Part shown: positions 5,497 through 28,547 of the stretch, piece by piece | Position numbering within the stretch: the stretch's first letter is position 1 | Layout of the letters: every line of letters starts with the position of its first letter | NCBI GenBank assembly: GCA_016787925.1 | Contig: JAEUSK010000117.1 | Location: 1-40,326, forward strand | Length of the DNA: 40,326 nucleotides | DNA from: a bacterium | GTDB lineage: Bacteria; CLD3; SB21 | Direction of reading: 5' to 3' | The notes under the pieces: model-generated | The model's database searches: none | Told to the model about the DNA's origin: nothing | Seen by the model: only the letters and a program-made list of their open reading frames with translations | Translations under genes and position numbers: made by a program

Positions 5497-6117
5497 ATGT
5501 ATGTCATGAGACATTTAGCTTTTTATTCCATCGCCGCAATGCTGGTACTTACCGGATGTACCACTCAAGGCAATAAAAAACCATTAACGGAAGCAGAATC
5601 CCGGCAATATGCTGAAAGTGGAAAACTGATCGTTAAGACTACTTTTGAAGTTTTATCGGGGCACCTGTCGCAGGCGTTAGCACGCGGTGGCGTTTCTGAA
5701 GCTGTCACTTATTGCAACCTCCGCGCGTATCCGCTGGTTGATTCGCTGTCCGGCGAATATAATGCACGAATAAAACGGGCAACCATTTGGGTCAGAAACG
5801 CAGACAACAAAGCAGACGCCGATGAGGAAATGGTTTTAAAAGAATATGCCGCGCTAAAATCCGGCCAAAAACCGATGAAGCCGATTGTGCGTCGTAAAGA
5901 CAATGGCGACGTCGCTTTCTACATGCCGATTCAAATTACGACTCCGCTATGTTTAAATTGCCATGGAGACGTTGGAACAGATATTACAGCGGCCGATTAT
6001 AATATAATCAAGAAACTATATCCCAACGATAATGCAACCGGACACTCCATGGAAGATCTGCGCGGAATCTGGAGTATAACTTTTTTTGAAAAACAACCGA
6101 TTGGAAAGGAATTCTGA
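5497..6117 (+). CDS. DUF3365 (Tll0287-like) c-heme lipoprotein
   Basis: 206 residues with a signal peptide and lipobox (LVLTGC, Cys21). The body matches the Tll0287-like/DUF3365 sensory fold: a helix with AVTYCN (about 69-74), the RNADNKADADE stretch (about 100-110) that corresponds to the conserved RNP.N.P..E element, and a C-terminal CLNCHG heme c attachment motif (Cys152, Cys155, His156). Such domains bind a single c-type heme in the periplasm and are thought to act as redox or gas sensors, often fused to signalling modules; here the domain stands alone and lipid-anchored. An in-frame ATG at 5506 is an alternative start. The first rhodanese begins three bases after the stop, so they are probably co-transcribed. 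Confidence 0.85.
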   Translation: MYVMRHLAFYSIAAMLVLTGCTTQGNKKPLTEAESRQYAESGKLIVKTTFEVLSGHLSQALARGGVSEAVTYCNLRAYPLVDSLSGEYNARIKRATIWVRNADNKADADEEMVLKEYAALKSGQKPMKPIVRRKDNGDVAFYMPIQITTPLCLNCHGDVGTDITAADYNIIKKLYPNDNATGHSMEDLRGIWSITFFEKQPIGKEF

Positions 6118-6120
6118 CCC

Positions 6121-6438
6121 ATGAGTCTTTTTGGACTATTCAGCTCACCAACGATCCCTCAAGTGGATGCCGAACAATTACGTTTACGCATTAAGAACGA
6201 AAAACCAATTTTACTCGACGTGCGTGAAGTGTTTGAACATAAATCACAGAATATTCCGGGTTCCACGTTAATTCCGTTGGGTGAACTACAGCGCAGAATG
6301 GCGGAACTTGAAAAGTATCGTGCAAAGGAAATTGTAGTATACTGCCGCAGCGGCGGCCGAAGCATGAGCGCTTGTAAATTTTTACAAGCACAAGGATTTA
6401 ATGTTGTCAATCTATCCGGAGGAATCCTTCGATGGTAA
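6121..6438 (+). CDS. Cytoplasmic rhodanese-like sulfurtransferase
   Basis: A single rhodanese domain of 105 residues without a signal peptide. The active-site loop is CRSGGRS, with the catalytic Cys preceded by VVY and followed by the typical SGG..RW end of the domain. Such proteins accept and donate sulfane sulfur as a cysteine persulfide. It follows the heme lipoprotein by three bases and overlaps the next rhodanese by seven bases, so a cytoplasmic and an exported rhodanese are made together. With the DUF2892 gene upstream this reproduces, as separate genes, the parts of YgaP. Confidence 0.9.
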   Translation: MSLFGLFSSPTIPQVDAEQLRLRIKNEKPILLDVREVFEHKSQNIPGSTLIPLGELQRRMAELEKYRAKEIVVYCRSGGRSMSACKFLQAQGFNVVNLSGGILRW

Positions 6439-6869
6439 TATTAATCCCTTACTCTATACAAACCGTGATTAGCCTCTACAAACATGCCCTATGGATAAGC
6501 GCCGGATTTCTAATTTTTTCCTCGCTCGGCTGCGCTCAACAGCCGCCGGGATACAGTACCATTAGTGCCGGAGAATTTGCAGAGATGTTACCAAAAGATT
6601 CCGGAATTGTATTAGACGTTCGGACGCCGGGTGAATACAAAAACGGTCATGTGGCTCAGTCAGTTTTGATCGACATCATGCAGGCTGATTTTGAAGATAA
6701 GATAAAAAAATTAGATAAAGAGAAATCATACTACATCTATTGCCGCTCCGGTAACCGAAGTTCCAAAGCCTCGTCGATGATGATCAAGCTCGGATTCAAA
6801 AGAGTGTTTAATGTGAAGGACGGTATAGACAATATTCTCAGGAGCGGCGTGCCGGTTTCAAAAGATTAA
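6432..6869 (+). CDS. Exported rhodanese lipoprotein
   Basis: 145 residues; the only in-frame ATG available near the front is at 6432, inside the end of the previous gene. A hydrophobic signal (ALWISAGFLIFSSLGC) ends in a lipobox Cys, so the rhodanese domain should lie in the periplasm on a lipid anchor. The catalytic loop is CRSGNRS, and the domain carries the LDVRTPGEY substrate-side motif. It is the last plus-strand gene of this block; the next genes converge on it from the minus strand after only 18 bases. No clear hairpin terminator was seen between them. A role in handling periplasmic sulfide or polysulfide is inferred only. Confidence 0.88.
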   Translation: MVILIPYSIQTVISLYKHALWISAGFLIFSSLGCAQQPPGYSTISAGEFAEMLPKDSGIVLDVRTPGEYKNGHVAQSVLIDIMQADFEDKIKKLDKEKSYYIYCRSGNRSSKASSMMIKLGFKRVFNVKDGIDNILRSGVPVSKD

Positions 6870-6887
6870 GACCACAATTGAGACTGT

Positions 6888-7295
6888 CTAATACTTACCA
6901 AATGCATAGACGCGCGGCCAGAGATTGAGGATAAAAAGGATCACTGCTGCTGTTTGACATATGCGTCCAGTCAAAAGAATGTAAGAAATCGAAATAAACG
7001 GAGCGATTGAACACACCCAGATACCTGCATTGAGAAGCACAAAGGCCAAGGCCGCCTTCCTCTCATCCCCCCGATCTGTCATAGTCTGAAGCCTCGGAAA
7101 TATCCAAAACGCGACCCCCATCGTCAACTGCAGAATAAACCCGAGTAACAAGAATTCAATATGCATCTGCAATAAATTCCAAACGGATGGAATGACCGGT
7201 ACAGCCTTGTTGAATAATATCAAAGCTCCAATCGTAAATCCCAGTCCCAAATAGGCCAGTGAACATCGTATCAACCACACGCTAAGAGTCGGCAT
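6888..7295 (-). CDS. 4-TM membrane protein, NorB/CcoN helix-II-like (paralogue 1)
   Basis: 135 residues, almost wholly four hydrophobic helices. The second helix reads HIEFLLLGFILQLTMGVAF followed by WIFPR, which resembles helix II of heme-copper oxidases and NO reductases, where the His ligates low-spin heme b and the helix ends in MGA..Y..P. The protein is far too short to be a catalytic subunit and lacks the CuB/FeB histidines. The preceding gene (7307-7759) is a divergent paralogue with the same motif. It is the last gene of the nitrous oxide island, 11 bases after its paralogue. A heme-b membrane subunit is a reasonable guess; no function is established from the sequence. Confidence 0.75.
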   Translation of the reverse strand: MPTLSVWLIRCSLAYLGLGFTIGALILFNKAVPVIPSVWNLLQMHIEFLLLGFILQLTMGVAFWIFPRLQTMTDRGDERKAALAFVLLNAGIWVCSIAPFISISYILLTGRICQTAAVILFILNLWPRVYAFGKY

Positions 7296-7306
7296 AACTT
7301 ACAACC

Positions 7307-7759
7307 TTATAAAACTCGAATCACATTTGTTGACGGCAATTGTTTTCCTTTCACGCGCTGCCAAATGTGAACAACGTATAACATGCCCCCGATCCACTGC
7401 AACAGAGCCGAAACGATCAGCAGCCAACGCCACTCATTTACGGGATCTAAAAAAACTACGGGCTCACCCACCACCCGCAAAATCAATCCGACATTAATGC
7501 TGACAAATGAAATCCACCCTAGAATTTCAAGACCTCGCGGCCGATCCTTATTTACGGGCGGGAACATCCAGAATGAAACACCCATGATGATCTGAGTGAT
7601 CCAGCCAACCAGGAACAAATGAAAGTATACCGGATTCATCGCGACAATAAATTCCGGCAATGGAATGACAGATGATAGTTGAATTATAACGGCCAGCAAT
7701 AGTGCTGCTGCAAAATTTACGAAGCCTGCTTTAATCCAATAACGTGTAAGTGGAGGCAT
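7307..7759 (-). CDS. 4-TM membrane protein, NorB/CcoN helix-II-like (paralogue 2)
   Basis: About 150 residues starting MPPLTRYWIKAGF at an ATG; a longer reading frame begins with TTG at 7771 but has no better ribosome site. Four transmembrane helices are visible. The second carries VYFHLFLVGWITQIIMGVSF then WMFP, matching the paralogue downstream in the His position, the Q..MGV element and the terminal W.FP. This again resembles the heme-binding helix II of the heme-copper oxidase/NO reductase superfamily but without the rest of the catalytic core. The two genes are adjacent (11 bases apart) and follow a CopD-like gene, so the three products may form one membrane complex. The function is unknown. 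Confidence 0.75.
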   Translation of the reverse strand: MPPLTRYWIKAGFVNFAAALLLAVIIQLSSVIPLPEFIVAMNPVYFHLFLVGWITQIIMGVSFWMFPPVNKDRPRGLEILGWISFVSINVGLILRVVGEPVVFLDPVNEWRWLLIVSALLQWIGGMLYVVHIWQRVKGKQLPSTNVIRVL

Positions 7760-7797
7760 ATGGTTAAACAACCCCTATATAGATGAACTGATGCAAC

Positions 7798-8313
7798 TTA
7801 CCAAGGCCTTCCGCGAACCAGCATAACTGCGCAGAATAGTATGCAAAACCCCAATACCAGGTTTAATCTAAGGAGTAAAAACGATTTCTTATTTAATCGA
7901 ATAGTTTCTTCAGACTGAATATACGGTTTCCCGGTATTCAGATTCCTTAATAGAAAGTCGTTTACAGCAGCACAAGCGAGAACCCCTGTAAACAGCAGCA
8001 GCTTCACCATCAATGTTTCTCCAAAATATCCAAGCCAGAATTCTGAACCGAAAAGATCATACCAGTTGTACCCGCGAACAAAAAGATTGTATAGACCCGT
8101 AACAAATAGAATAAAAAAACAAATCCAGCTTAACCTACGAAACGTTTGAATCTTTAAGTAGTGATTAGACAAATCGCTGCTGCCATGATTTCCATTTTTG
8201 ATCTCTCTTTGATACAACAAAATAACCAGAACGGATCCGCCAAGCCAAATCGTTGCCATAAGAATATGAACAAAAACAGAGATGAAATAAAGTGCTAGCA
8301 ATTGAAAGTCCAA
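7798..8313 (-). CDS. CopD-like/DUF2214-like 4-TM membrane protein
   Basis: About 171 residues with four or five transmembrane helices. The N-terminal helix has HILMATIWLGGSV, the H...A..WLGG signature of CopD-domain and related putative heme- or copper-handling membrane proteins; later helices carry TGLYNL and LMVKLLLF phrases common in the same families. The start is uncertain: the frame opens with TTG at 8313 immediately after a TGA, has no clear ribosome site, and the next ATG would remove 18 residues. It follows the copper TonB receptor by 32 bases, which favours a role in copper passage across the inner membrane, although a heme protein partner of the two NorB-like products is equally possible. 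Confidence 0.7.
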   Translation of the reverse strand: MDFQLLALYFISVFVHILMATIWLGGSVLVILLYQREIKNGNHGSSDLSNHYLKIQTFRRLSWICFFILFVTGLYNLFVRGYNWYDLFGSEFWLGYFGETLMVKLLLFTGVLACAAVNDFLLRNLNTGKPYIQSEETIRLNKKSFLLLRLNLVLGFCILFCAVMLVRGRPW

Positions 8314-8345: not shown

Positions 8346-10565
8346 TTAATACGTTACGATAATGCCGGTATAAATATTTCTACCGCGTCCAGGAAGATTA
8401 TTGATGCTCAAATGTTCGTGATACAATTTATCAAAAATATTCTCAACTCCAAATTTCCATTCTAAATGAGAATTCCATTTTATAGAGCCGCGCATGTTTA
8501 ATACCGCAAAACTTTTTGTTTCATCTTCGAGTGAAGTTTTTCCGGCAATACGTTTCTGTGCGCCGGCCACTCGAGCATCTAAGCCGAGCCAAATTATTTC
8601 ATTCTGATAAACAAGAGCAGCCGAACCCTGAATCGGGGGTATCAGAGGCAAAGGCTCATTCAATTCATCATTTACACCATACAAATAACTCACCGATGCT
8701 GCAACGCTCCATCTCGCAGCCAGGTTCAATGTTCCGCTGCCTTCGACACCTGCAATTCTCGCTCTATTAATGTTTGCATAAGTTTTAAATTCGCTGTCTG
8801 TTAACACGCCGATCACGTAATGGTTTATAATATTATAAAACACATTTAATTGAAACCGACTGGCCGTATGCTCTGAAATCAATCGGCATTCAATCTGTCT
8901 GCTTTGCTCCGGTTTCAAATTCGGGTTTCCCATATAGAAATACCCATCCTGAATATTATACAGATAAAAACCGTAATTTTCGAGATGCGTCGGCATGCGT
9001 TCACTTTGCGCCAATGCGACCGACATAGTGTAAGCCGGGCTGAAATGATATTCCATAACGGAGCTAATCGCCGCCGTAATATAAGTTTGATGCAACGGCG
9101 CACTGCTGATGCTTCCTTCAAGCAATCGCCTTCCGGTTTTGTCATGCAGGCTTCTGTCCGAATAATCCGTGCGCGCATTCAATTTCCAATAAAGCCGATT
9201 GTTTAGCGCGCGGTCATAATTGATTGCCAATGAAATATTATTCACGTCAATACCGCCGAGATTTACCAGGTACATGGGTGAAACGTTATTAGCAATACTT
9301 TCCATGGTCATATCGGCAAAGGCATTAAGATAGTAGTATTCGCCAATAATTCTGAACGCCTGTTTTTTATCAACAATTAGCGCTTGTTCCGTTACGCCCA
9401 CCGTTGTTGTTTTCCCAAACATCGGCATGTACATATCTTTCATGACTGTTCGCGCAGTTACGTCGCGATCATAATCGTCCATCCAGTGTTCGATGCGGTT
9501 TGCATAGACTTTGCTTTCGATAAGCCGAATGCGTGAAGAAGTGCGTTCCCAGCGGTGTTCGATACTATAAATCTGCGACTTCGTTTTACGCGTATCCATA
9601 AGCATAGATGGATAGCCAATATCCCAGGCATTATCGCCTATAAACGAAACATTCACCTTGTGTGCGGCGCCGATCTTCTTTGAAAGATCGACTTTGTAAT
9701 TATTTTTCTCAAAGCCTGAGCGCTGGACACGGTTGTTTTTACCGGCATAAAAATCACCGGCACGTTTATATGAAAAAGTTGCGCGCACGGCGATATTATC
9801 ACGACTTACGTTAACCACCGACCGGACGCGTTTCAGACGCGATACCGATTCATATCCTGCCTCATTTTCTGTGAATAACCGTTTCTCAAAATCAGGTTTT
9901 TCTGTAACCATGTTTATCGTCCCGCCTATGTTCTGGGACAGGCTCAGATCAAATGACCCTTTGCTGATTTCAAGTTTTTCCAAATTTTCAACTTCCACAT
10001 AAGCTGATACCGGGTCCATATGATCTACGCAGGCGCTGAATATCTTCATGCCGTCAACAACCGTGGCGATCTGGCCGGAAGTCATGCCGCGGACAGAAGG
10101 CTCCGACGCGAAATTGGCCCGCTGAATCAGAGTAACGCCATCTATTTTACTACTCAGGTCATCGACTGTATTAAACTTTTGGTCATAAAGAGATCGTAGA
10201 TCCCTTGCCGACTCCCGATTCGCGACGACCACTTCCTCCGTCAGCACAATCGTCCGTGTAAAAAGTGAGACTTCTATTTCACTCGCTTGTATATCCTGCG
10301 ATCGAATCAACATCCTCTTTTCCTGATAGCCCATGGCGGAGATACGGATTTCATACTCGCCTTGCGGCAGCGATAAAGTGAAACGCCCGTCCTTATCGCA
10401 GGCGCATCCACGTTTTGTTTCTAAAATGCTCACATGGGCATATGAAATTGGCTGGTTTGTTGTAGCATCTTTTACGACGCCGCGAAGTTCCATACTTTGA
10501 ATTTGAGCGCGGATTGTAAGCGGAATAATGAGCGCGAGAATCGCCGTAAGTATGAATGTTCTCAT
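8346..10565 (-). CDS. TonB-dependent copper receptor, OprC/NosA type
   Basis: 739 residues. A signal peptide (about 1-20) is followed by a carboxypeptidase-regulatory-like beta-sandwich (about 25-105), a plug domain (about 120-225, with VRG and GGTINMV phrases) and a 22-strand barrel ending in an aromatic residue (Tyr). The plug contains SACVDHMDPVSAY, giving CxxxM at Cys179 and Met183, and the barrel contains HWM at His360 and Met362. OprC of Pseudomonas is known for a CxxxM-HxM copper site, and NosA, of the same family, is needed for NosZ maturation in Pseudomonas stutzeri. All four ligands are present here with about the same spacing. The gene is within the nos island, so supplying copper for NosZ is the likely job. 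A terminator lies just upstream. Confidence 0.9.
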   Translation of the reverse strand: MRTFILTAILALIIPLTIRAQIQSMELRGVVKDATTNQPISYAHVSILETKRGCACDKDGRFTLSLPQGEYEIRISAMGYQEKRMLIRSQDIQASEIEVSLFTRTIVLTEEVVVANRESARDLRSLYDQKFNTVDDLSSKIDGVTLIQRANFASEPSVRGMTSGQIATVVDGMKIFSACVDHMDPVSAYVEVENLEKLEISKGSFDLSLSQNIGGTINMVTEKPDFEKRLFTENEAGYESVSRLKRVRSVVNVSRDNIAVRATFSYKRAGDFYAGKNNRVQRSGFEKNNYKVDLSKKIGAAHKVNVSFIGDNAWDIGYPSMLMDTRKTKSQIYSIEHRWERTSSRIRLIESKVYANRIEHWMDDYDRDVTARTVMKDMYMPMFGKTTTVGVTEQALIVDKKQAFRIIGEYYYLNAFADMTMESIANNVSPMYLVNLGGIDVNNISLAINYDRALNNRLYWKLNARTDYSDRSLHDKTGRRLLEGSISSAPLHQTYITAAISSVMEYHFSPAYTMSVALAQSERMPTHLENYGFYLYNIQDGYFYMGNPNLKPEQSRQIECRLISEHTASRFQLNVFYNIINHYVIGVLTDSEFKTYANINRARIAGVEGSGTLNLAARWSVAASVSYLYGVNDELNEPLPLIPPIQGSAALVYQNEIIWLGLDARVAGAQKRIAGKTSLEDETKSFAVLNMRGSIKWNSHLEWKFGVENIFDKLYHEHLSINNLPGRGRNIYTGIIVTY

Positions 10566-10615: not shown

Positions 10616-11422
10616 CTATTCAACCGTAAGATCATAATGTGTAGAAAGCAAAGTTGTATCGTTAATGGTTGCATTTACATCAACCTGCCAATCTCCGGTC
10701 ATCGTGAAGTTAACTTTTCCATGGTATCGTCCCATACTTGTGTGAACCGGGTTTACGTTATTTGAAGAGCCATGACCCATCGACGGCATGGTCGGTGCAA
10801 TGTTCACCATCGCATTGGTGACAGGAGGAAAACTCATCGTCGTTTGTTTCTTATAGAGGCCTATTTCGAAATCGTTTAGACCAACATGCGGTTCTTTATG
10901 GTCAATAAGTGTCATGATATACTTATCGGCGCCTATGGTCAAAGCCTTCACATCAGATGAGTTCTTTATTATGAGGTTAAAAACGGCCGAACCTTGCATA
11001 TGGTTATGATGATTGAGGAAATTGACCCTAACAGTCCAATGGCCCATATCGTAACTTGGCATGGTGAATACGACAGCGCCTTGAAAATATCCATTTTCAT
11101 AGCCGGAAGGCTCTTCAAATGGACTGGAGTGCATCATACCCATATCCGTCATGTCCATCATAGGTATCAGTTCTACCTGCGCATTATCGACCTCGTGTCC
11201 GTCGTCTGTAGTTTTCATGCCGATGTATAGGCGGTTAAATCCGACCTGAAGGGAATCTTCAGCATACAAGCTTACGATCGTGGATGCAGAATCAACCGTT
11301 ATGCTCGCAATTGGAAACAACTGTAGTTTTGAATTATGGGTATCCTTATCTGTACAGCCGGAAACATGCGCGATCATAGAGAAAAGAAATGCAGATAACA
11401 TTATTTCGATCTTCTTAGACAT
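10616..11422 (-). CDS. Met/His-rich exported lipoprotein with two YtkA/FixH-like domains
   Basis: 268 residues from the ATG at 11422 (MSKKIEIMLS), chosen because GGGAGAATTTT precedes it; the longer frame to 11506 adds 28 residues without signal features. A signal peptide ends at the lipobox HVSGC. Two Ig-like repeats follow, each with a P.M..M..G motif: MMDMTDMGMMHSS about 95 residues in and MPSMGHGS nearer the C terminus, each then a Y..G.V.F.M.G.W.V element typical of YtkA-like/FixH-like domains. Methionine and histidine clusters (LNHHNHM) suggest Cu(I)/Cu(II) binding in the periplasm. It lies between the nosDFY/Cys-rich genes and the copper receptor, consistent with a copper-handling role. 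That function is inferred. Confidence 0.75.
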   Translation of the reverse strand: MSKKIEIMLSAFLFSMIAHVSGCTDKDTHNSKLQLFPIASITVDSASTIVSLYAEDSLQVGFNRLYIGMKTTDDGHEVDNAQVELIPMMDMTDMGMMHSSPFEEPSGYENGYFQGAVVFTMPSYDMGHWTVRVNFLNHHNHMQGSAVFNLIIKNSSDVKALTIGADKYIMTLIDHKEPHVGLNDFEIGLYKKQTTMSFPPVTNAMVNIAPTMPSMGHGSSNNVNPVHTSMGRYHGKVNFTMTGDWQVDVNATINDTTLLSTHYDLTVE

Positions 11423-11544
11423 AAAATTCTCCCGTTTGAACTTATTCAAACGTACTTTTCCCGTAGTAAAGTGTATTACACCATACCAAGACGAAAAATC
11501 GTTCAATTCTTTTTTAAAGTTACAATTATTTTGTATGGAGAATA

Positions 11545-11919: not shown

Positions 11920-12711
11920 TCAAAAATCTTTTCTGTTAAAAATACGCTGTCCCGAAAAGAGCGGAATGCCTACCCACAACATCAAGAAGACTACTGAGAT
12001 AATCATACCGGTCCAGCCTGCAAAAAATTTATGAAAAACGGCGCCCGTATATCCCATCAATGCCGAAATATCAAACTGCAACAGTAGTAAAGTCCGTGCA
12101 ATGTCAATCGGATTCAAAAGGCTGACGCCGATCATTGCCTTTTCCAACGGGTAATCGCCGAAAGTGTAGATCAAAATTAAAACGATCCCGTCGTACATAA
12201 TCGCAAAAAAGAACCACAATAAAATAGAAAGCCCAAGGCCTTTCAAGCGGTCTTCATAACGGATGGAAATTGAAAAGGATAATGCGACAAAAATAAACGT
12301 CAGAAAAACTCCCGCTACTATCAGCATGCCCATCATGCCCGCTTCCTGCGATGTATGAATACCATACATCAGGCTGGGAATACTGACACCAAGCACGAAT
12401 CCGGCCGACAACGGAATGGCCAAACCGCTGTACACGCCCCAAAAGATCTTCTTCCTTTCGATCGGCTGCGATAACAGAAGTTCAATAAATTCTCTGGAAT
12501 GATACAGATACATAGTTCCGAAAACAATGCTGACCAGAGGAATAATAATGAGTACGATATTCATCAGACTCAAAATTACCTTGCTTTGATTTCCACCAAA
12601 CCGAAAGAGCCCTTCAGTCAACAAAAGAAAAAATAATGCGTATAGAATCATCCATTTGCTGCGCAGTACATCCTGAAGCTCAAATTTTAATATTTTTGCG
12701 GTACCGTCCAC
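11920..12711 (-). CDS. nosY: NosY-like ABC transporter permease
   Basis: 263 residues with about six transmembrane helices, the organisation of ABC-2 permeases such as NosY. Members work with the NosF ATPase and periplasmic NosD to deliver a sulfur or copper-related component needed for the CuZ cluster of nitrous oxide reductase. The start is GTG and overlaps the nosF stop by one base (TAGTG), so translation is coupled. The N-terminal stretch RSKWMILYALFFLLLTEGLF is typical of this permease class. The Cys-rich exported protein gene starts three bases downstream. Confidence 0.88.
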   Translation of the reverse strand: MDGTAKILKFELQDVLRSKWMILYALFFLLLTEGLFRFGGNQSKVILSLMNIVLIIIPLVSIVFGTMYLYHSREFIELLLSQPIERKKIFWGVYSGLAIPLSAGFVLGVSIPSLMYGIHTSQEAGMMGMLIVAGVFLTFIFVALSFSISIRYEDRLKGLGLSILLWFFFAIMYDGIVLILIYTFGDYPLEKAMIGVSLLNPIDIARTLLLLQFDISALMGYTGAVFHKFFAGWTGMIISVVFLMLWVGIPLFSGQRIFNRKDF

Positions 12712-13418
12712 TACGCGTGCCCTTTCATAATCTGTGCAATCGACCGTTCTAATTTATCTTCGCCGGTATTGATTCTGAGTAAATCGGCGCTGCCTTCAAA
12801 ACAAATCTTTCCATCAAGAAGAAATACGATTTTTTCAGAAAGCTCCTCCAACTCGCTCATAATATGCGATGTCAGGATAATGGTCTTGCCATTTTCCTTC
12901 TCCTGCAAAATCTTGTCTTTCAAAAAACTGCTTGAGATGGGGTCCAGGCCCGCGGTAGGCTCGTCCAGAATAAGGATGTCGGGATTAAACATGAATGCGA
13001 TGTAAGCATTTACCTTCTGTCGCGTGCCGCCGGACAGAGTGCGTACAGGCTTTAGAAATTCTTTTTCGAGTTCGAATTGAGTAAAAAGCTCCTCGTCACA
13101 ATCCGCCGGATTATGACGCAAGTCTTTTATCATGCCAATGAGTTCGTCTAGTTTTAAATTTTCAGGAAACCGAGCCGATTGCGGCATGTACCCGATGGCT
13201 TTCTTATAGGACGAACCGCCATTTAATTTTTGTTCCTTAACAAATATTTCACCTTTATCCGGTTTGACCAATCCCAGAATTGTCTTGATAATCGTCGATT
13301 TTCCCGACCCATTGGGCCCGATTATCGCTGTGATCGTGCCAGGCTTAATCTCAAAATGCACGCCTTTGAGAACTTCCAATTTCTTGAAACTCTTTTCTAA
13401 ACCAACGATTCTTATCAC
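12711..13418 (-). CDS. nosF: NosF-like ABC transporter ATPase
   Basis: 235 residues with all ABC ATPase motifs: Walker A GPNGSGKST, signature LSGGTRQKV, Walker B ILILDEPTAGLDP and the switch His in LTSHIMSE. The gene lies between nosD and nosY with overlaps of four bases (ATGA with nosD) and one base (with nosY), the canonical nosDFY order. It powers the NosDFY complex that takes part in assembling the copper-sulfide CuZ centre of NosZ in the periplasm. Confidence 0.93.
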   Translation of the reverse strand: MIRIVGLEKSFKKLEVLKGVHFEIKPGTITAIIGPNGSGKSTIIKTILGLVKPDKGEIFVKEQKLNGGSSYKKAIGYMPQSARFPENLKLDELIGMIKDLRHNPADCDEELFTQFELEKEFLKPVRTLSGGTRQKVNAYIAFMFNPDILILDEPTAGLDPISSSFLKDKILQEKENGKTIILTSHIMSELEELSEKIVFLLDGKICFEGSADLLRINTGEDKLERSIAQIMKGHA

Positions 13419-14671
13419 AAAATTCTCCTCATCATTGGTTTTGTATCCATCAAAGTTTCCGGCGTCAATACCGGAATCATTTTTTCTGCCACATCAAGAA
13501 TGGAGATAAAAAAACTCCGTAATAAGATCAGCGAGGCCGGTTGCTGCTGAGTAATGATAGAAAAGAGAGTGACCGGGCGAAACGGGACATCCCCGACTCC
13601 GTCGCGGTCCAGATCATATCCGGAATATGCGCTCCAGTAATTACCTTGAAAAGTGCTGAAATTACTCCGGCTGTTCGTCGCTACGTCAAATGAATTACCG
13701 ATAAAATTATTTTCCGAAAAGATATTAGCATACGAATTGGCCATTAATTTGATCGCCCATCCGTTTCGTATGAATTCATTGTTTTTGATTTTCATACGAA
13801 TTGAACCTTCAATATACAAACCGGTACTGTTTCCAATAAAAACATTTTTTGTAATTTCGCTATCCGATATATCCTTTAGTAAGATGCCATAGGAAGACGG
13901 GCCCCAGTTATGTTCAAATGTATTACCTGTCATGGTCACGCTTTTCGTGTACATTACGGCCACACCGGCGCTATTGTCGCGAAAAATGTTCTTAGAATAC
14001 ATACAACTGTCTGAGAACATAAAATGCAATCCGTAACGCAGATTGTGTTCACTGACATTTCCAATGATATTACCTTCTTTTACAAATTCAAAATATATCC
14101 CGTCCCGATGACCGGTGATTGTATTGTCTTTAATCGTGATCTTCCTGCATGACCATAAATGGATGCCATTTCCCGAAGACGATTCCGTTGTACCCGCAGA
14201 TTGTATCTCGTTATTTTCGATCAAACAGTCAGAGGATTTAGCGAGATAAATTGCAAAGAAGTTCCTAATCAGCTTATTATTCCGAATGATGCAGCGTTCT
14301 ATCTCTTTTAATCTTATACCTGCGTTTTCCTGTACGTAACTAATTCCGGCATTTTGGATTATTAGTCCGTCAATAATGACGTCATTCGCCGTGACCGTAA
14401 ATATTTCTCCTTTTCCTTCGCCGTCAATAACCGGATTATCTTTACCGATGAGCGAAACCGATTTATCAACGATTATATTACCTTCTGTATATCGGCCCGC
14501 GTAAATAATGATCCGGTCGCCGTTATTTGATAAGAGCAAGGCTTGCTTAATCGAACGCATAGTACCGTCGGGCTTCACATGCAAATCTTTCGAATAGCCT
14601 TGTGAAACTCCAAAGCAAAAAATTAGCAATAGAACAAACCCTGTTAAACGTATGCCAAAATTATCTTTCAT
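13415..14671 (-). CDS. nosD: NosD, periplasmic right-handed beta-helix copper-maturation protein
   Basis: 418 residues. A Sec signal peptide (FVLLLIFCFGVSQGYS) precedes a domain made of short repeated strands with I.NN.....GI...S..N.I..N patterns over about residues 90-340: the CASH/parallel beta-helix fold of NosD. The C-terminal phrase NYWSAYSGYDLDRDGVGD (about 345-360) is a hallmark of NosD proteins. It acts in the periplasm with NosF and NosY in NosZ cofactor assembly. Its ATG overlaps the stop of the tryptophanase gene (ATGA), and its own stop overlaps nosF. Confidence 0.93.
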   Translation of the reverse strand: MKDNFGIRLTGFVLLLIFCFGVSQGYSKDLHVKPDGTMRSIKQALLLSNNGDRIIIYAGRYTEGNIIVDKSVSLIGKDNPVIDGEGKGEIFTVTANDVIIDGLIIQNAGISYVQENAGIRLKEIERCIIRNNKLIRNFFAIYLAKSSDCLIENNEIQSAGTTESSSGNGIHLWSCRKITIKDNTITGHRDGIYFEFVKEGNIIGNVSEHNLRYGLHFMFSDSCMYSKNIFRDNSAGVAVMYTKSVTMTGNTFEHNWGPSSYGILLKDISDSEITKNVFIGNSTGLYIEGSIRMKIKNNEFIRNGWAIKLMANSYANIFSENNFIGNSFDVATNSRSNFSTFQGNYWSAYSGYDLDRDGVGDVPFRPVTLFSIITQQQPASLILLRSFFISILDVAEKMIPVLTPETLMDTKPMMRRIL

Positions 14672-16047
14672 CCTAGTCTTTCAAAATGAGCGGTGAAATG
14701 ACGCAGGAATTTGGGTTCATGCGTAATTCGCAAGCCGCGTACGGATTTTTTCGTGTCGATGATCTCTTGGAACACTTCCACAACGTAATCTACATGGCTC
14801 TGCGTATAGACGCGCCTCGGAATGGCGAGGCGCACGAGTTCCATCAACGCCGGAATAAGTTTTCCTTTATCATCGTATTTACCGAACATGACGGATCCTA
14901 TTTCAACGCACCGGATACCGCCTTTGAGATAGAGTTCGCATACCAGCGCCTGTCCGGGATACTGCTCTACCGGAATGTGCGGATACAATGCTTTGGAATC
15001 CACGTAAACTGCATGCCCTCCAACGGGCAGCATGATCGGAATACCCATCTGACTTATCTTTTCACCCAAGTACTGCGTGCTGCGGATTCGATATTTCAAA
15101 TAGTCTTCTTCAAATACTTCTTCTAATCCTACAGCAATAGCCTCCATGTCCCGTCCTGCAAGGCCTCCGTAGGTAGTAAATCCTTCGGTGATAATCAGCA
15201 TATTAGTACAGGCATCGGAAATTTCATTATCCCGCAGCGCTAAAAAACCGCCTATATTAACGAGGCCGTCTTTTTTGGCACTCATCACGCATCCGTCAGC
15301 TAGAGCGAACATCTCCTGCGCTATTTCCCGGTAAGTTCTATTCTCATACTCCTTTTCACGATGCCGGATGAAATAAGCATTTTCGGCCACACGGCATGCA
15401 TCGATAATAAAAAGCACCCCGTATTTTTTACAAACCTTGCTGATCGCTTTGGTGTTTTCCATACTGACAGGTTGTCCGCCACCGGAGTTATTCGTAACGG
15501 TGAGTATAACCGCGGATACATTCTTTGAGCCGTGCTGTTTTATCAATGCTTCTAATTTAACAACATCCAAATTACCTTTGAACGGATAATCCATAGAAGG
15601 ATGGTGCGCCTCTTCTATCGGGCAGTCTATTGCCGTCGCTCCGCTGAATTCGATATTAGCTCGGGTGGTATCGAAATGCGTATTGCTTAAAAACACTTTC
15701 CCTTTTCCGCCCAGATAACCGTATAGAATGCGTTCCGCCGCGCGTCCCTGATGCGTAGGTAAAATATGAGGATATCCGGTAAGGTCTTTGACCACCTTTT
15801 CAAATTTCAACCAGCTTTTCGCCCCGGCATAAGATTCGTCGCCGGACATCATTGCCGACCATTGGCGTGAACTCATCGCAGAAGTTCCGCTGTCAGTCAA
15901 TAAATCAATCAACACCTGATCTGAATGGAGAAGAAAGGGATTATAATGAGCCTTTTGTAGGAACTCAGTTCTCTCTTTTTCTGTCGTCATGTAAATAGGT
16001 TCTACCGTCTTGATTTTAAACGGTTCAATAATGACTTTGTGGTGCAT
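14668..16047 (-). CDS. tnaA: Tryptophanase (tryptophan indole-lyase)
   Basis: 459 residues, normal for the beta-eliminating lyase family. The PLP lysine is in SAKKDGLVNIGG (second Lys, Lys259), and IDLLTDSGT, THQGR and TYGGLAGRDMEA are family-wide. Several positions point to tryptophanase and not tyrosine phenol-lyase: FDTT near residue 125, IRCVEIGS where tyrosine phenol-lyase has the substrate-binding Arg (RSMERG), and LRHFTA near the C terminus, where the His replaces the Phe of tyrosine phenol-lyase. The enzyme would convert tryptophan to indole, pyruvate and ammonia in the cytoplasm. Unusually, the gene lies inside the nos operon and its stop overlaps the nosD start. There is no TnaC-like leader evident and no TnaB permease beside it. 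Confidence 0.88.
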   Translation of the reverse strand: MHHKVIIEPFKIKTVEPIYMTTEKERTEFLQKAHYNPFLLHSDQVLIDLLTDSGTSAMSSRQWSAMMSGDESYAGAKSWLKFEKVVKDLTGYPHILPTHQGRAAERILYGYLGGKGKVFLSNTHFDTTRANIEFSGATAIDCPIEEAHHPSMDYPFKGNLDVVKLEALIKQHGSKNVSAVILTVTNNSGGGQPVSMENTKAISKVCKKYGVLFIIDACRVAENAYFIRHREKEYENRTYREIAQEMFALADGCVMSAKKDGLVNIGGFLALRDNEISDACTNMLIITEGFTTYGGLAGRDMEAIAVGLEEVFEEDYLKYRIRSTQYLGEKISQMGIPIMLPVGGHAVYVDSKALYPHIPVEQYPGQALVCELYLKGGIRCVEIGSVMFGKYDDKGKLIPALMELVRLAIPRRVYTQSHVDYVVEVFQEIIDTKKSVRGLRITHEPKFLRHFTAHFERLG

Positions 16048-16089: not shown

Positions 16090-16866
16090 TTAATACGCTA
16101 TCAGCAGCACGGTAACTAAAACAAAACAGTATCCGAATTCCATGAATCCGATCGTGGCTATCGGCAGCCGTTTGTACCAATCGATAGCCAAGACCACGAA
16201 CAACAATTTTGCAATTATCAGTAATAAGACGCTTATCAGGGCAATTGAAATATCCATCAAAGAAACCGTCAGCAGCAGGCAAAATACTAAATAAGACAGC
16301 GCCTCTTTGAACGACACTTTGTCAAATCGCGCCTTTACCAAAAAAACACTCGTGCCGAAATAACAGAATAATAATACCCATAATTTCAGGAACTCTAATC
16401 CGGGTGCTTGATCAGGGTTGAATGCAATAAGCCCTGCCAATGCTATCGAAGCGAATGCCAGAAGTTCAGACAGAACATGTTTGTGTTCTCTTTTCAAACT
16501 TAAATACATATAAACAAAACTAACTGCAACCAGAACCGGAAAGACAAAACTGAACGTAATGGCTTCCTTTAACAAATTAAATCCTGAAACCGCCGCGAGA
16601 AATCCGTATACTATGATCCATACTTTCTTACGCAGGGCCACGGCGAACTGTTTTTTCAGATATTCCTGCACCAACTCGCCGAGGTTTAACCCGGCAAGCA
16701 AAAAAATGACCACGGCAGCATGAGTCCGGCTCATAGATTCGCTTAGCAGCGTGCCGACCAGCCAACTCGTGATCAACGATATGTATGCGCCGTGTTGACG
16801 GGACCAGACAGGAATCAGTAGGCTGGAGAAACTTATTTTATCATCTTCTATATTAAATTGATTCAT
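16090..16866 (-). CDS. YwiC-like membrane protein
   Basis: 258 residues with about eight hydrophobic helices. Near the N terminus it carries PVWSRQHGAYISLI, the P....HGAY signature of the YwiC-like family; Bacillus subtilis ywiC lies near anaerobic nitrate respiration genes. The function of the family is unknown. It starts 20 bases after ctaA and is followed by tnaA after 42 bases, so it is embedded in the nos island. It may belong to the UbiA-like prenyltransferase-related group or be a transporter, but no catalytic DxxxD motif was recognised. Confidence 0.75.
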   Translation of the reverse strand: MNQFNIEDDKISFSSLLIPVWSRQHGAYISLITSWLVGTLLSESMSRTHAAVVIFLLAGLNLGELVQEYLKKQFAVALRKKVWIIVYGFLAAVSGFNLLKEAITFSFVFPVLVAVSFVYMYLSLKREHKHVLSELLAFASIALAGLIAFNPDQAPGLEFLKLWVLLFCYFGTSVFLVKARFDKVSFKEALSYLVFCLLLTVSLMDISIALISVLLLIIAKLLFVVLAIDWYKRLPIATIGFMEFGYCFVLVTVLLIAY

Positions 16867-17972: not shown

Positions 17973-18050
17973 TCATTTACTTTCTTTACCGCGGATCAGC
18001 CTGTATCCGAGGCCGAAAATATACGATAAAATACCATTCAGTAAAATCAT
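17973..18050 (-). CDS. 25-codon mini-ORF overlapping the nosL stop
   Basis: A short frame beginning with an ATG that overlaps the nosL stop codon (ATGA) and encoding a 25-residue, mostly hydrophobic peptide (MILLNGILSYIFGLGYRLIR then GKESK). It fills most of the 95-base gap between nosL and ctaA and has a positively charged tail typical of a single-pass membrane peptide. The four-base overlap is the same coupling used by nosD-nosF and other genes here. It may be a real microprotein or chance; no family was recognised. Confidence 0.35.
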   Translation of the reverse strand: MILLNGILSYIFGLGYRLIRGKESK

Positions 18051-18493
18051 TTCTTCACGACCAAACTCATCACTTCCTGCCAATTCAGTAGATTCCCTTC
18101 CATCTGTGATCTCATAGCTTCTGCTGCCTCGCGGTTGGCAAATGATGAGAGGAACATGCCCATCGGGCTTGGAAGATTTTTGCTTTGCAAATAATAAGCG
18201 CCGTCTGCTTTAACCCACATTCCTGGATTTGAAAAGTCAATGGTCCACAAAGACTGCACATCAGCAAATTCACTATGACGGTAATAAAACGCCATACATT
18301 CTATCGAGTCAAATTTATATATTTTTCCTTTTTGTGTGATCAATTCAGCGCCAAATTTCTGGTCGCTGATCACCATCCGGCAGTGCGCGCAATCGTCATA
18401 ACCATAATCGATCGCTTCCGGGTTATTTTGACATGATGCGATTGACGTCATGAGAAATACGAAAACCAATAAGTTACTATGCTTGTTTGACAT
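18047..18493 (-). CDS. nosL: NosL copper-binding lipoprotein
   Basis: 148 residues from the ATG at 18493 (MSNKHSNLL), selected because AAGGA lies eight bases before it; a longer frame to 18532 has no ribosome site. The signal peptide ends at SIASC, giving a lipid anchor. The mature protein has DDCAHCRMVISDQKFGAE, the NosL C..C.M motif, and a later DSIECMAFYY element. NosL is a periplasmic copper chaperone that supplies Cu to apo-NosZ. It overlaps the end of the NosB-like gene by 17 bases and is followed by the mini-ORF. Confidence 0.93.
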   Translation of the reverse strand: MSNKHSNLLVFVFLMTSIASCQNNPEAIDYGYDDCAHCRMVISDQKFGAELITQKGKIYKFDSIECMAFYYRHSEFADVQSLWTIDFSNPGMWVKADGAYYLQSKNLPSPMGMFLSSFANREAAEAMRSQMEGNLLNWQEVMSLVVKK

Positions 18494-19085
18494 GTTCCGG
18501 TTCCTTATTTTTTCTGGAGTGACGGGCCTCAACGGTCATGACAAATACTCCCAACATGAACGAAATTCCGGCAACGATTGCGCCGATATGTGGCAGCGAG
18601 GTCGTCTTCATATTCAATAGCTGTTTAGTTCCGATCAACGGAGGCTGATACGTCATGCCTGGAACTTTGATCGCGGCATGCGGATCCAAATTATGCCCGT
18701 AATCATATTCCCACATATAGAAGTCAAAGAGCCCTGCAGCCAACACTAAAAAGAATATAATAACCCAGGTATTAAGTAAAAACCTTTTCCCGGCAAAAGC
18801 CACTATTAATCCCGTAAAAATCAGAAACGCCACAATATAGGGCATGAGTTTTAATTCCGGAATATCCTCCGGCGTTATTATTTTCATTCCGATATAATGG
18901 TTGAGGCCGTTGATCGTATTAAGATCATTGGGTTTTTGACCGCTTATTTTGTTGATCCAGATGTGCAGTCCGATGCCCTCGGGATATTGCGGCGCATCAA
19001 GATCAATGATCCACATTGGAAAAAAATACAAAACGACCAACATCATCGATGCCGATGCAATGATAATTTTCGACTTTTTTTTCAT
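18477..19085 (-). CDS. nos-cluster membrane protein (possible NosB-like)
   Basis: 202 residues with four predicted transmembrane helices (about 7-25, 80-98, 104-124 and 165-187). The periplasmic loop holds PMWIIDLDAPQYPEGIGLHI and NGLNHYIGM, phrases I associate with a membrane protein conserved next to nosZ and nosL in clade II nos clusters. NosB of Wolinella occupies an equivalent position, but equivalence is not proven here. The C-terminal phrase SLPHIGA carries another His. It lies between nosZ (66 bases, with a terminator) and nosL (overlap of 17 bases). A role in NosZ maturation or electron supply is inferred from position only. Confidence 0.75.
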   Translation of the reverse strand: MKKKSKIIIASASMMLVVLYFFPMWIIDLDAPQYPEGIGLHIWINKISGQKPNDLNTINGLNHYIGMKIITPEDIPELKLMPYIVAFLIFTGLIVAFAGKRFLLNTWVIIFFLVLAAGLFDFYMWEYDYGHNLDPHAAIKVPGMTYQPPLIGTKQLLNMKTTSLPHIGAIVAGISFMLGVFVMTVEARHSRKNKEPEHVKQA

Positions 19086-19151: not shown

Positions 19152-21113
19152 TCAGTCCTTATTAAATGAGATAGGCACATTTGAATTTGCTTCGGATACG
19201 CGGGCATAACCCTGCATTTCCTGATGAAGAGCGGAGCAGAAGTCTGTACAGTAGAACGGGTAAATGCCCGCTTTTTTAGGTTCCCACTTCATGGTGCAGG
19301 TTTCACCCGGCATAATAAGCAATTCGGAATTCTGCGTTCCTTTGATAGCAAATCCGTGCGGAACGTCCCAATCTTGTTCTATGTTGGTCACATGGAAGTA
19401 CACCACATCACCAACTTTAAATCCTTCGATATTATCAGGCGTAAAGTGCGAACGTGATGCGGTCATCCAAACGTGAACCTCTTTACCTGTGCGCACGACT
19501 TTAGCTTCTCTCGGACCTTTGGTCACATATTTGTGTTCGTTCTTATTAATATCAAAGAATTTCACTTCCCGTTTTCTCACAAGCTCGGCTGGAATGCCTT
19601 GCGCATAATGCGGTTCACCGATTGTCGGAAAGTCCGATAGCATTTTCATTTTATCACCGCTGATATCAAATAATTGAGCGGATTGTGTGAGTTCCGGTCC
19701 TGTCGGCAGGTAACGGTCTTTGGTAATCTTGTTCATCGCCAAAAGATATTTACCCCACGGTTTTTTGCTGTCCCCGCCGGGAATCATGAGATGGCCGACG
19801 GAATAATACGTAGGCGCTCTGTCTACTACTTCCCATGTACCGATCTTCCATTTTACTATTTCCGACGTAATAAAGTGTGAAGTATAACCATATCCTTTGT
19901 CGTCGAATTCGGTATGCAGTGGCCCGAGTCCGGACTCCTGCACTTCACCGGCTAATACCGCATCATATTTCAGAACGGGTATGCCATCTCTGTCTCCATC
20001 AAACGCTTTTTCTTCGATAGCTTTGATCATCTTCGAAAATGAAAATACGGGTACCATGCCGGCCAATTTACCGCCGCCCGCAATGTATTCACCCGACGGA
20101 TCCACATCCGCGCCATGCGGGGATTTGGGACACGGCATCAAATACAACATATCGGGGCATTCTTTCGGATCGAGCATTTTAACTTTGTTTAACTTCTCTA
20201 CAATGGTCGTCTGCGTTCTTTCGTCCCATCGGTTGCGCTGATACTCGCTCGCCCATTCTTTAAATTTACCTTGCGCAATATATTCTTCCGCTTTTTTCCA
20301 GTTCACAGCCATAATAAAATCTTTGTCATTCTGACTCGCATTGACTTCAAGCAGAGTATGGGCTTGTTCCGTATTGTAGCAAGAGAAAAAGAACCATCCG
20401 TTTGATGGTCCTTTACCCGCATGGCTCAGGTCAAAATTATATCCGGGTACCAGAATTTGAAAAGCAATATTCATATCGCCTTCTTTAGGGTCAACTTTGA
20501 TAAACGTGACTGTGCCTCTGAAATTTTCTTTGTAGCTTGCAATAGGCACATCTTTGTCAGGAATAGGAACGCTGAAACGCGTCGCGGAAACGACATATTC
20601 CGTATTAATGGTTGTGAACGGCGAAGCGTGGCTTCCGCCGCTGTTCGGAATTTCGAGGATCTCATCGGTCCTGAATGTGCCAAGGTTAATGCGGGCGATG
20701 CGCGGAGTATTATTCGCATTAATGAAAAGCCAGCGTCCGTCCGGAACGCCGTCGGTCATGGATAATTCAGGGTGATGACTATCATCCCACGGAATGAAAC
20801 CATGCACGCTGGTTAACATCGGTTTGGTTTCTTCGGTGTAGCCCCATCCGTTCTCCGGGTTAACAGCAAAAACGGGTATCACTTTTAACAAACGTCCGCT
20901 CGGTAATCCATACACGGAAACTTGTCCGCTAAATCCACCGGACAAGAAGGCATAGAAGTCATCATAACTTCCGGGCGGCACGAACACCTTAGAGGCGGCA
21001 TCATCCGTTCCCATGGTATCTTTCTTCGGGGAACACACAATAAAAATTAATCCTCCGATTAACAAAGCGAGAGCCAGATAGCTCAGCTTACTGAGTTTAA
21101 TTCTACTCCACAT
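19152..21113 (-). CDS. nosZ: Nitrous oxide reductase, clade II (Sec-dependent)
   Basis: 653 residues. The N terminus (MWSRIKLSKLSYLALALLIGG) has no twin-arginine motif, so export is by Sec, as in clade II (atypical) NosZ; a Cys at about 27 is a poor lipobox. The seven-bladed propeller shows the CuZ histidine sites DDSHHPEL (His113, His114), GGSHASPF, KSPHGADVDPSG, GLGPLHTEFDD and following ones. The C-terminal cupredoxin domain has the CuA site CTDFCSALHQEM (Cys622, Cys626, His630, Met633) plus VPHGF. It reduces N2O to N2 in the periplasm. The ribosome site AAAAGGAGAATAAG is strong. The lipoprotein cytochrome c and fasciclin genes are upstream and the maturation genes downstream. Confidence 0.97.
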   Translation of the reverse strand: MWSRIKLSKLSYLALALLIGGLIFIVCSPKKDTMGTDDAASKVFVPPGSYDDFYAFLSGGFSGQVSVYGLPSGRLLKVIPVFAVNPENGWGYTEETKPMLTSVHGFIPWDDSHHPELSMTDGVPDGRWLFINANNTPRIARINLGTFRTDEILEIPNSGGSHASPFTTINTEYVVSATRFSVPIPDKDVPIASYKENFRGTVTFIKVDPKEGDMNIAFQILVPGYNFDLSHAGKGPSNGWFFFSCYNTEQAHTLLEVNASQNDKDFIMAVNWKKAEEYIAQGKFKEWASEYQRNRWDERTQTTIVEKLNKVKMLDPKECPDMLYLMPCPKSPHGADVDPSGEYIAGGGKLAGMVPVFSFSKMIKAIEEKAFDGDRDGIPVLKYDAVLAGEVQESGLGPLHTEFDDKGYGYTSHFITSEIVKWKIGTWEVVDRAPTYYSVGHLMIPGGDSKKPWGKYLLAMNKITKDRYLPTGPELTQSAQLFDISGDKMKMLSDFPTIGEPHYAQGIPAELVRKREVKFFDINKNEHKYVTKGPREAKVVRTGKEVHVWMTASRSHFTPDNIEGFKVGDVVYFHVTNIEQDWDVPHGFAIKGTQNSELLIMPGETCTMKWEPKKAGIYPFYCTDFCSALHQEMQGYARVSEANSNVPISFNKD

Positions 21114-21868: not shown

Positions 21869-22363
21869 TCACGAACCTTTTTTAACTTCTTTACCTTCTT
21901 TTCTAAGGTATTCCAATATAGACATGGCCTCGTCTTTGGTAAGATTCTGATTGGCCATTGGGGTAAGGAATTGCGCAAAGAGCTTTTTTGCTTCCGGATG
22001 TTTCTGAATCATGCCTTCCGGATTCAACATCATGTTCACTATATACTCCGGTGTTCTGCGCTGCGTTACGTCATGCAGCTGCGGACCAACAAGTTTCGAG
22101 TCCACACGGTGGCATTGAAAACACTTTAACTCAAACGTTTTCTCACCTTTTTTGGCGAGCGCCACGTCAATGGTTTCGCTTAGTTTGAGCGCTTCTTTGA
22201 TCGGGCCAATACCGTGGAGCATTTCAAAATCAGTCAACCCATTTGGGTTAGCAGCTTTTGCCGCCTTAGTTGGTGTTGCTTTAACTTTCTCACCGCTATC
22301 GCCGCAAGCCAATACCATAACGCTGACGGCGAATAAAATAAGAACTGTTTTCAGGATTTTCAT
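21869..22363 (-). CDS. Lipoprotein c-type cytochrome, likely NosZ electron donor
   Basis: 164 residues. The signal peptide ends in a lipobox (VMVLAC, Cys20), so the cytochrome is membrane-anchored on the periplasmic side. One heme c site is present, CFQCH (Cys81 to His85), with the probable axial Met136 in LTPMANQNLT, an arrangement of class I cytochromes c. No NosR or NosGH/NosC genes are seen in the window, so this cytochrome is the best candidate to carry electrons to the CuA site of NosZ. It starts 23 bases after the RIC gene and is followed by the fasciclin gene. Confidence 0.9.
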   Translation of the reverse strand: MKILKTVLILFAVSVMVLACGDSGEKVKATPTKAAKAANPNGLTDFEMLHGIGPIKEALKLSETIDVALAKKGEKTFELKCFQCHRVDSKLVGPQLHDVTQRRTPEYIVNMMLNPEGMIQKHPEAKKLFAQFLTPMANQNLTKDEAMSILEYLRKEGKEVKKGS

Positions 22364-22386: not shown

Positions 22387-23124
22387 TTAGACTACTTGAA
22401 TTAATTCATTTTCAATTTTGACGGCCTTTGGGAACAAAATATTATTTTCGAGATGAACGTGTTTATGCAGATCGCGTTCAAATTCATCCAGCTCGGTCAG
22501 GCATAATCGAAACGTCGTGCACGCATCGGCCGGCGGTTCGTAGTTTCGGCTAATAGTTCGAATTCTATCCATGGCACGGCCTGCGCGGTCATGCTCGAAT
22601 TCCATGACACTGATCGGATTGCGAACGGTTTTAAACGCAGGCGGTACAACTGCATCCCGCTTTTTGTGTGATTCGGCCATTTGGCGGATATATGGAAACA
22701 GCATTTGCTCCTCTTTTCTCATATGCATGGTCATTTCGTCGGCCACTTCATCAAAATGTTCGTTGATTTCTTTCATCTCAGGATGATTTCTTCCATGAGC
22801 GTTTACTACTTTTTGCAGATGAGCCTGAATAACCGGTATAGCATTTCTCACATACGCATGATGATTGCTTTCGATATAATCGATCAACAAACCAATTTCC
22901 ATTTCGCTGAATTCAATTCTCCCAGATCGGTACGCCGTCTTCTTGTCCGCTATTTGCAGTTCGCTGCAGACACCGGCAACATCAATACCGTTTTCTGCGC
23001 ATGCAGCTGATAAAGTCTTCTTCCCTCCGCAGCAAAAATCTAACCGATGCTTTTCAAATACGTTAGCCGAGAACGGGTATTTGATTACAATTTCAGAAAG
23101 TGTAAGATGATCGATACTTTCCAT
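22387..23124 (-). CDS. ric: RIC family (ScdA/YtfE) di-iron protein, repair of iron clusters
   Basis: 245 residues. The N-terminal ScdA_N domain (residues 1-60) has the signature HRLDFCCGGKKTL. The C-terminal hemerythrin-like four-helix domain shows His/Glu ligand positions in ESNHHAYVR, HGRNHPEM, DEMTMHMRKEEQMLFPY, EFEHDRAG and HKHVHLENNILFP. RIC/YtfE proteins protect and repair [Fe-S] clusters after nitric oxide stress. The gene follows an Rrf2 regulator by 64 bases and shares an upstream 20-base motif with it, so it is probably an NO-inducible target. It opens the nos run. Confidence 0.93.
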   Translation of the reverse strand: MESIDHLTLSEIVIKYPFSANVFEKHRLDFCCGGKKTLSAACAENGIDVAGVCSELQIADKKTAYRSGRIEFSEMEIGLLIDYIESNHHAYVRNAIPVIQAHLQKVVNAHGRNHPEMKEINEHFDEVADEMTMHMRKEEQMLFPYIRQMAESHKKRDAVVPPAFKTVRNPISVMEFEHDRAGRAMDRIRTISRNYEPPADACTTFRLCLTELDEFERDLHKHVHLENNILFPKAVKIENELIQVV

Positions 23125-28103: not shown

Positions 28104-28547
28104 TTATTCTATAAAGAGTATATCCTCATTATAATATCCGGTGCTGTCGGACTGCCAATTAAACTTTACGCGCCAGAGTCCTTTTTCCATGTCACTCAAC
28201 GGGACATACTGCACATTTTCATCGTCCGGATGAATCAAAATGGTCCTATCGTTTTTGGAATCTGAAGGTCGGTAGAGGTTAATCGATCCCCTGATTTTAG
28301 TCAGATTTTTTGGAAATTGTAATACCAGCTGATTCGCCTGACGTTTCCAACCGAGCGGACTTACTAAAGCTTCGGCCCGTTTTACCTTGTCAATATGCTG
28401 TTGATATGCAATTTCTTTGTCGTAATAGTTTTCCTCTACCAGATCGACTTTATTAAATGTGGAAACAACAAAAAAGCCGATTATGAACAGTGCAAAACTA
28501 CCGTACAGAGCTGTTACTCCTAACGCCCAGTTTCCGTAAATTTTCAT
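28104..28547 (-). CDS. ccoH: CcoH/FixH cbb3 oxidase assembly protein
   Basis: 147 residues with one N-terminal transmembrane helix (LGVTALYGSFALFIIGFFVVS) followed by VEENYYDKEIAYQQHIDK, a characteristic FixH element, and a periplasmic Ig-like domain. FixH/CcoH is a single-pass protein needed for stable assembly of cbb3 oxidase. Its start overlaps the ccoG stop by four bases (ATGA). Confidence 0.92.
   Translation of the reverse strand: MKIYGNWALGVTALYGSFALFIIGFFVVSTFNKVDLVEENYYDKEIAYQQHIDKVKRAEALVSPLGWKRQANQLVLQFPKNLTKIRGSINLYRPSDSKNDRTILIHPDDENVQYVPLSDMEKGLWRVKFNWQSDSTGYYNEDILFIE

Follow-up and report, generated by a model that had tools for sequence, protein, structure and literature searches.

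Two small membrane proteins encoded at the end of a bacterial nos gene run, here called A and B, are single-repeat, four-transmembrane (4-TM) members of the heme-copper oxidase/NnrS fold, and they divide between them the two histidines of a motif that the cbb3 oxidase subunit CcoN carries in a single helix. Based on their sequences and those of their neighbors, A and B probably constitute an undescribed heme protein of nitric oxide (NO) metabolism. The heme-copper oxidase fold comprises twelve helices in a pseudo-threefold arrangement, and it is attractive to suppose that it arose by triplication of a smaller unit. To our knowledge this idea has been without well-described single-unit relatives, and a search of the open-access literature found no description of such proteins.

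The window (the whole stretch of DNA analyzed, 40,326 nucleotides) contains a co-directional run of 19 genes on the minus strand, extending from rrf2 (23695) to B (6888) with gaps of at most 107 bases and several overlaps. The run reads rrf2, RIC, lipoprotein cytochrome c, fasciclin lipoprotein, nosZ, NosB-like, nosL, ctaA, YwiC-like, tryptophanase-like, nosD, nosF, nosY, a small ORF, YtkA, a copper-receptor-type TonB protein, CopD, A and B, the final three genes occupying positions 6888-8313 at its 3' end. The principal features are listed below, with functions of neighboring genes assigned from family matches:

6888-7295, minus strand: B subunit, 135 residues, 4 TM, His45 kept, Glu47 (ORF; AF2 and Foldseek)
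7161-7163, minus strand: B His45 codon, first His of the CcoN HxH motif (alignment; 31/31 B sequences)
7307-7759, minus strand: A subunit, 150 residues, 4 TM, His47 kept (ORF; AF2 and Foldseek)
7619-7621, minus strand: A His47 codon, second His of the HxH motif (alignment; 33/33 A sequences)
7798-8313, minus strand: CopD-family membrane protein, 171 residues (PF05425, E 4e-11)
8346-10565, minus strand: TonB-dependent receptor of the copper-receptor type, probably OprC/NosA-like (TIGR01778, E 1e-51, below cut-off)
10616-11506, minus strand: YtkA-domain lipoprotein (PF13115, 5e-15)
11920-14671, minus strand: nosY, nosF and nosD, NosZ maturation (named from deduced protein sequences; kept in relatives)
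16090-16866, minus strand: YwiC-like membrane protein (PF14256, 4e-13)
18047-19085, minus strand: nosL and NosB-like membrane protein (named by sequence and position; order kept in relatives)
19152-21113, minus strand: nosZ, clade II type by operon order (named from sequence)
21869-22363, minus strand: lipoprotein cytochrome c (ORF list)
22387-23124, minus strand: RIC/YtfE-type di-iron repair protein (PF04405 and PF01814)
23189-23695, minus strand: Rrf2-family regulator, NsrR-like candidate (PF02082, 5e-30)

The length of A is counted from an ATG, the listed ORF start being a TTG 12 bases upstream. A preliminary description of this locus had placed a CopD-like gene ahead of the pair, and this gene indeed scores 43.6 bits against PF05425 (cut-off 32.1) and retains the conserved H, W.GG and KL. 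The same description held that the nos island lacks NosR and NosGH, and we likewise saw neither in the nos run; CcoG (28544-29977) is part of a neighboring cbb3 cluster outside it, and a domain search of A, B and CopD found no FMN-binding or polyferredoxin domains of the kind present in NosR/NosGH-type NosZ donors. Within the operon, the tryptophanase/beta-eliminating-lyase-like gene (14668-16047, between YwiC and nosD) is kept in three related genomes (G001-G003) and absent from the nos operon of another (G005). Convergent with B, positions 5497-6869 encode a Tll0287-like heme lipoprotein and two rhodanese genes, an arrangement kept in G001 and G002.

A and B were described as adjacent paralogs of about 150 and 135 residues, and their alignment bears this out, with 24% identity over 136 residues (pairwise E 2e-13) marking them as diverged. 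No named Pfam or NCBIfam family covers either protein, in line with the earlier view that no named system fits: NCBIfam models gave no match above cut-off for A or B, and PF05940 (NnrS), a 12-TM family, matched neither these 4-TM proteins nor the other members scanned. Their best Pfam match is COX1 (PF00115), at 20.6 bits for A and 20.3 for B against a cut-off of 34.8, a value that the best listed relative also falls short of (32.8 bits). COX1 was nonetheless matched by 15 of 17 family members scanned (best E 1e-8), on the first or last third of the model. Rather than twelve TM helices in one chain, the AF2 models of A and B each show four long helices, and in place of the six invariant histidines of COX1 (helices II, VI, VII and X) each protein has one, consistent with the initial remark that the other catalytic residues are missing.

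Profile and structure comparisons place A and B as one third of the oxidase fold. The 4-TM family profile matches every cbb3 CcoN sequence tested at helices IX-XII, including the window's own CcoN (E 1e-8 on the last third, with the other thirds weak). In hhalign the last third ranked first in 9/9 comparisons, usually followed by the first third, and single relatives aligned to helices IX-XII of cbb3 with 97% probability. Because a bona fide NnrS (L028) is matched three times along its length by this same profile, the unit represents one third of the NnrS/oxidase fold, and the term "half proteins" used previously does not apply. The AF2 models, which are monomers without cofactors, agree: for A (pLDDT 91.5) the best PDB matches in Foldseek are CcoN structures (prob 1.00/0.99, TM 0.67), as they are for B (pLDDT 89.9; prob 0.93-0.95, TM 0.64), whose model also matches NorB with TM 0.75. 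At 0.3-1.0 the Foldseek E-values are weak, which a four-helix bundle would lead one to expect, yet CcoN still ranks first for both proteins, upholding the original suggestion of heme-copper oxidase likeness. A PDB sequence search with the family profile returned only spurious Ktr matches.

The single histidine of each protein is followed by G(W/F)..Q..MGV.FW.FP, as first noticed, but the assignment of this motif to helix II does not hold, since in cbb3 subunits the last third, which contains helix X, scores far better and is the top hhalign match in each of the nine comparisons. The window's CcoN helix X and the corresponding stretch of A, HLFLVGWITQIIMGVSFWMFP, share G, W, G, W and P at identical spacing from the second histidine of HxH, and G, G, W and P follow this position at the same distances in CcoN, A and B. 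Nor do A and B carry the same histidine, as had been thought. Their registers differ (helix 2 of A, VYFHLFLVGWITQIIMGVSFWMFP; helix 2 of B, MHIEFLLLGFILQLTMGVAFWIFP), so that A has His47 (7621-7619) and B has His45 (7163-7161) with Glu47: the two different histidines of the HxH motif. This partition is strict. Position 47 is His in 33/33 A sequences and position 45 in none of the 33; position 45 is His in 31/31 B sequences, whereas position 47 is His in only 1/31, being Glu in most and Tyr, Ala, Leu or Asp in others. Stand-alone relatives keep HxH in 14 of 15 cases. In a tree calculated without the two His columns, and with few columns overall, B forms one clade (90% bootstrap) and A nearly does. 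The simplest reading of this pattern is an old duplication followed by complementary His loss. A and B could instead be heme-free remnants of a decayed oxidase or NnrS that persist in a structural or assembly role, given that each has just one strictly conserved histidine and scores below the COX1 cut-off. Strict complementary conservation of the histidines and long preservation of the tandem in many lineages argue against decay, and we give this explanation very little weight.

Within the genus the pair shares 85-90% identity, a value that falls to about 37-52% across the family; the pair is therefore coding and under selection rather than a chance reading frame. A and B lie side by side in six further genomes of the family, in all but one of them inside nos genes with CopD upstream. 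CopD immediately precedes A in the family's nos operons seen, apart from G006, where the YtkA and TonB genes fall between CopD and A. When GTDB genomes were scanned with a profile built from A alone, the tandem turned up in Chloroflexota, in Balneolota/Rhodothermia (including the cultured Gracilimonas mengyeensis) and in Calditrichota. Surveying 386 genomes, most of them from other families and some of them MAGs, added further A-B lineages and many single copies, while a plasmid search with A-type queries returned only Thermus singles or nothing.

That the two histidines are divided between A and B suggests that the proteins act together. In cbb3 structures, the high-spin heme is ligated by the first histidine of HxH and the low-spin heme by the second. 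With helix 2 of each unit matching helix X of subunit I, A-His47 is the counterpart of the low-spin heme ligand and B-His45 that of the high-spin heme ligand. We tentatively propose, at slightly less than an even chance, that A and B probably assemble as a membrane b-type heme protein of NO metabolism, NnrS-like in role, with heme held between A-His47 and B-His45. In the likeliest geometry, one heme b would span the A-B interface near the periplasmic side of the membrane, in the way that the low-spin heme of oxidases is held between histidines of two different thirds. Charges and helix positions, with a clear charge bias in A and a modest one in B, suggest that both termini of each protein are inside and that the histidine sits near the outer end of helix 2, as in oxidases. 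A third partner is probable, CopD in this locus and an NnrS-like 12-TM protein in other phyla. Expression would probably respond to NO through the Rrf2 regulator, whose gene opens the operon together with RIC, and the complex may bind or buffer NO, or protect the N2O-reducing operon under nitrosative stress. The conserved histidines could instead bind copper or be structural.

Genomic context points in the same direction. At loci found by similarity to A or B alone, nirK adjoins the pair in several arrangements (nirK-SUMF1-SCO-A-B in L111, A-B-nirK in L038 and L050, divergent in L116) and adjoins single relatives in L124 and L135. A norCBQD cluster adjoins NnrS-CopD-A-B in L119/L120, and norCB accompanies singles in L141 and L143. 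Beyond the window's family, nosZ loci include L033 and L043 (nos genes-cupin-12TM-A-B), L049, and a single in L134. NO-stress genes also recur, with Rrf2-RIC-(12TM)-A-B in L047, L049 and L050, ScdA_N in L116 and RIC in L142; the window's Rrf2 protein is about 50% identical to the one encoded beside RIC-(12TM)-A-B in Balneolota/Rhodothermia. One further locus (L127) combines narG-narK with DUF2249, protoglobin and an NnrS-like protein. No N-oxide genes occur in the stretch examined at the A-B loci L024, L051, L112/L113 and L115. NirK is encoded in 27 of the 386 genomes, seven of which also hold a stand-alone unit, within about 3 kb of nirK in four of the seven; we estimate the chance expectation for such proximity, from genome size, at about 0.02. 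Like NnrS, then, A and B occur in NO-responsive neighborhoods marked by Rrf2, RIC, norCB and nirK, and an NO-responsive, protective or NO-binding role is favored because it best fits these regulators, RIC and the NnrS neighbors.

The grouping of CopD, A and B as a unit, proposed from this locus, recurs elsewhere: NnrS lies directly upstream in NnrS-CopD-A-B (G135/G271), and CopD adjoins a single relative in G339. The gene upstream of A nevertheless varies by lineage, being CopD, a 12-TM protein, SCO, RIC or none of these, and no NnrS gene that could serve as an unlinked partner was found in genomes of the window's own family. Immediately upstream of the pair, Chloroflexota and Balneolota encode two families of multi-TM proteins of about 360-420 residues without Pfam matches (L032:3219-4313, L031:2132-3205, L033:8332-9399, L049:8690-9958, L047:8699-9955); those of Chloroflexota show a weak 4-TM profile match in their last third, and these proteins look like undescribed NnrS/heme-copper oxidase relatives. 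YwiC-like proteins also occur near 4-TM units and NO genes in unrelated lineages (window 16090-16866; L035:1142-1963; L132:690-1787; L027:15122-15886).

The preliminary description raised the possibility that the complex feeds NosZ and called for a survey of nosZ linkage. Genomes with the unit carry nosZ more often than others do (p 2e-6, a figure that ignores relatedness), and outside the window's family nosZ occurs in 7/23 genomes with the unit versus 30/356 others (Fisher p 0.004, likewise ignoring relatedness). An exclusive link to nosZ was rejected: the enrichment outside the family is moderate, and other N-oxide genes are as common. In a broader form of the donor idea, A-B with CopD or a 12-TM partner would be a quinol-oxidizing membrane cytochrome b that passes electrons to a periplasmic cytochrome c and on to NosZ, NirK or NorC, replacing NosR/NosGH or NapC-type donors. 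Such a role would suit an operon that lacks NosR/NosGH and encodes a lipoprotein cytochrome c; it would also suit the several lineages in which A-B adjoins nirK, norCB or nosZ, and the gene for a multiheme c-type cytochrome that follows A-B in L034 (with a similar gene in L037). We consider it unlikely, however: the Rrf2, RIC, ScdA_N and cupin neighbors speak for NO stress, no further donor is needed where a norCB operon has its own cytochrome c (L120 and L143), the pair lies far from nosZ in one family member (G004), and no quinol-site signature was identified. A dedicated NosZ donor is a weaker proposal than an NnrS-like NO role because many A-B loci lack nosZ, their links extending to nirK, norCB, nar, NsrR-type genes and RIC.

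The genes immediately upstream in the window raise another alternative, in which CopD-A-B would be an inner-membrane copper import or delivery unit for NosZ, NirK or cbb3 oxidase, with the histidines as copper ligands. The copper-receptor-type TonB protein, YtkA and CopD all lie upstream, A-B follows nirK-SUMF1-SCO in L111, and NosZ and NirK are copper enzymes. Yet relatives lie beside the copper-free norCB and RIC, A-B persists without TonB/YtkA in G001 and G005, there is no Cys/Met copper motif, and the conserved histidines occupy heme-ligand positions of oxidases; we regard a copper role as improbable.

Single relatives in Thermus bear on a further possibility. On plasmid pTTJL1801 of Thermus thermophilus JL-18, one HxH single follows nar genes and a second (L132) has DUF542 and cupin genes before it and YwiC after it, in the cluster that has been described as NsrR-NsrS-NsrT, opposite norC (PMC5748679). 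The position of a stand-alone relative within this cluster, and the two-component and Crp genes beside several copies, could indicate that A-B is neither an enzyme nor a sink but a minimal NO-binding sensor signaling to Rrf2 or some other partner. But A and B have no signaling domain, and NsrR-type proteins sense NO directly by their own Fe-S cluster, leaving a sensor role with a very low probability in our view. Adjoining another Crp-type regulator gene, L118:4099-5073 encodes a 325-residue protein with an N-terminal HxH 4-TM unit and an unrelated C-terminal part.

If A and B bind heme as we propose, heme-copper chemistry could be studied in a minimal and tractable system, and a gap in the N-oxide metabolism of Chloroflexota, Balneolota and other little-studied lineages would be filled. 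The family supplies single units in NO/N2O loci, some with both heme-ligand histidines and some as pairs that divide them, and offers a functional hypothesis for hypothetical proteins of the culturable T. thermophilus. A bolder proposal, which we consider a long shot, is that the stand-alone units are living relatives of the unit triplicated into NnrS and heme-copper oxidases, and that A-B is a minimal NO-binding, NO-converting heme enzyme with the ancestral HxH histidines split over two polypeptides.

Several known families share features with A and B. The CopD family (PF05425) includes the upstream gene, not A or B. NorH of Thermus is, like A and B, a small membrane protein, encoded in the nor operon, but at 98 residues it is unmatched by the family profile (E 0.08) and was rejected as a named member. 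DUF2871 (PF11070) and DUF7321 (PF24007) are 4-TM proteins of about 135-155 residues with weak profile similarity to some members, below cut-off, so that a relation is only suggested; DUF2871 may belong to the same superfamily, and one DUF2871 protein with an HTH motif (L144:1456-1896) shows weak 4-TM profile similarity. CcoN of cbb3 and NorB (COX1) contain the same four-helix arc, their helix X motif H.H....GW......G...W..P corresponding to helix 2 of A and B, but have 12 TM helices and six histidines where A and B each have four helices and one conserved histidine, without CuB/FeB ligands. NnrS (PF05940), a heme- and copper-binding protein, shares NO-related neighborhoods with A and B and, in L028, holds three copies of the 4-TM unit, whereas A and B are separately encoded single units without a Pfam NnrS match. 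The stand-alone HxH proteins, such as Thermus WP_014630618 and WP_014630587 (annotated as hypothetical), belong to the same family by profile and lie in NO/denitrification clusters, but carry both histidines in a single gene rather than in a split pair.
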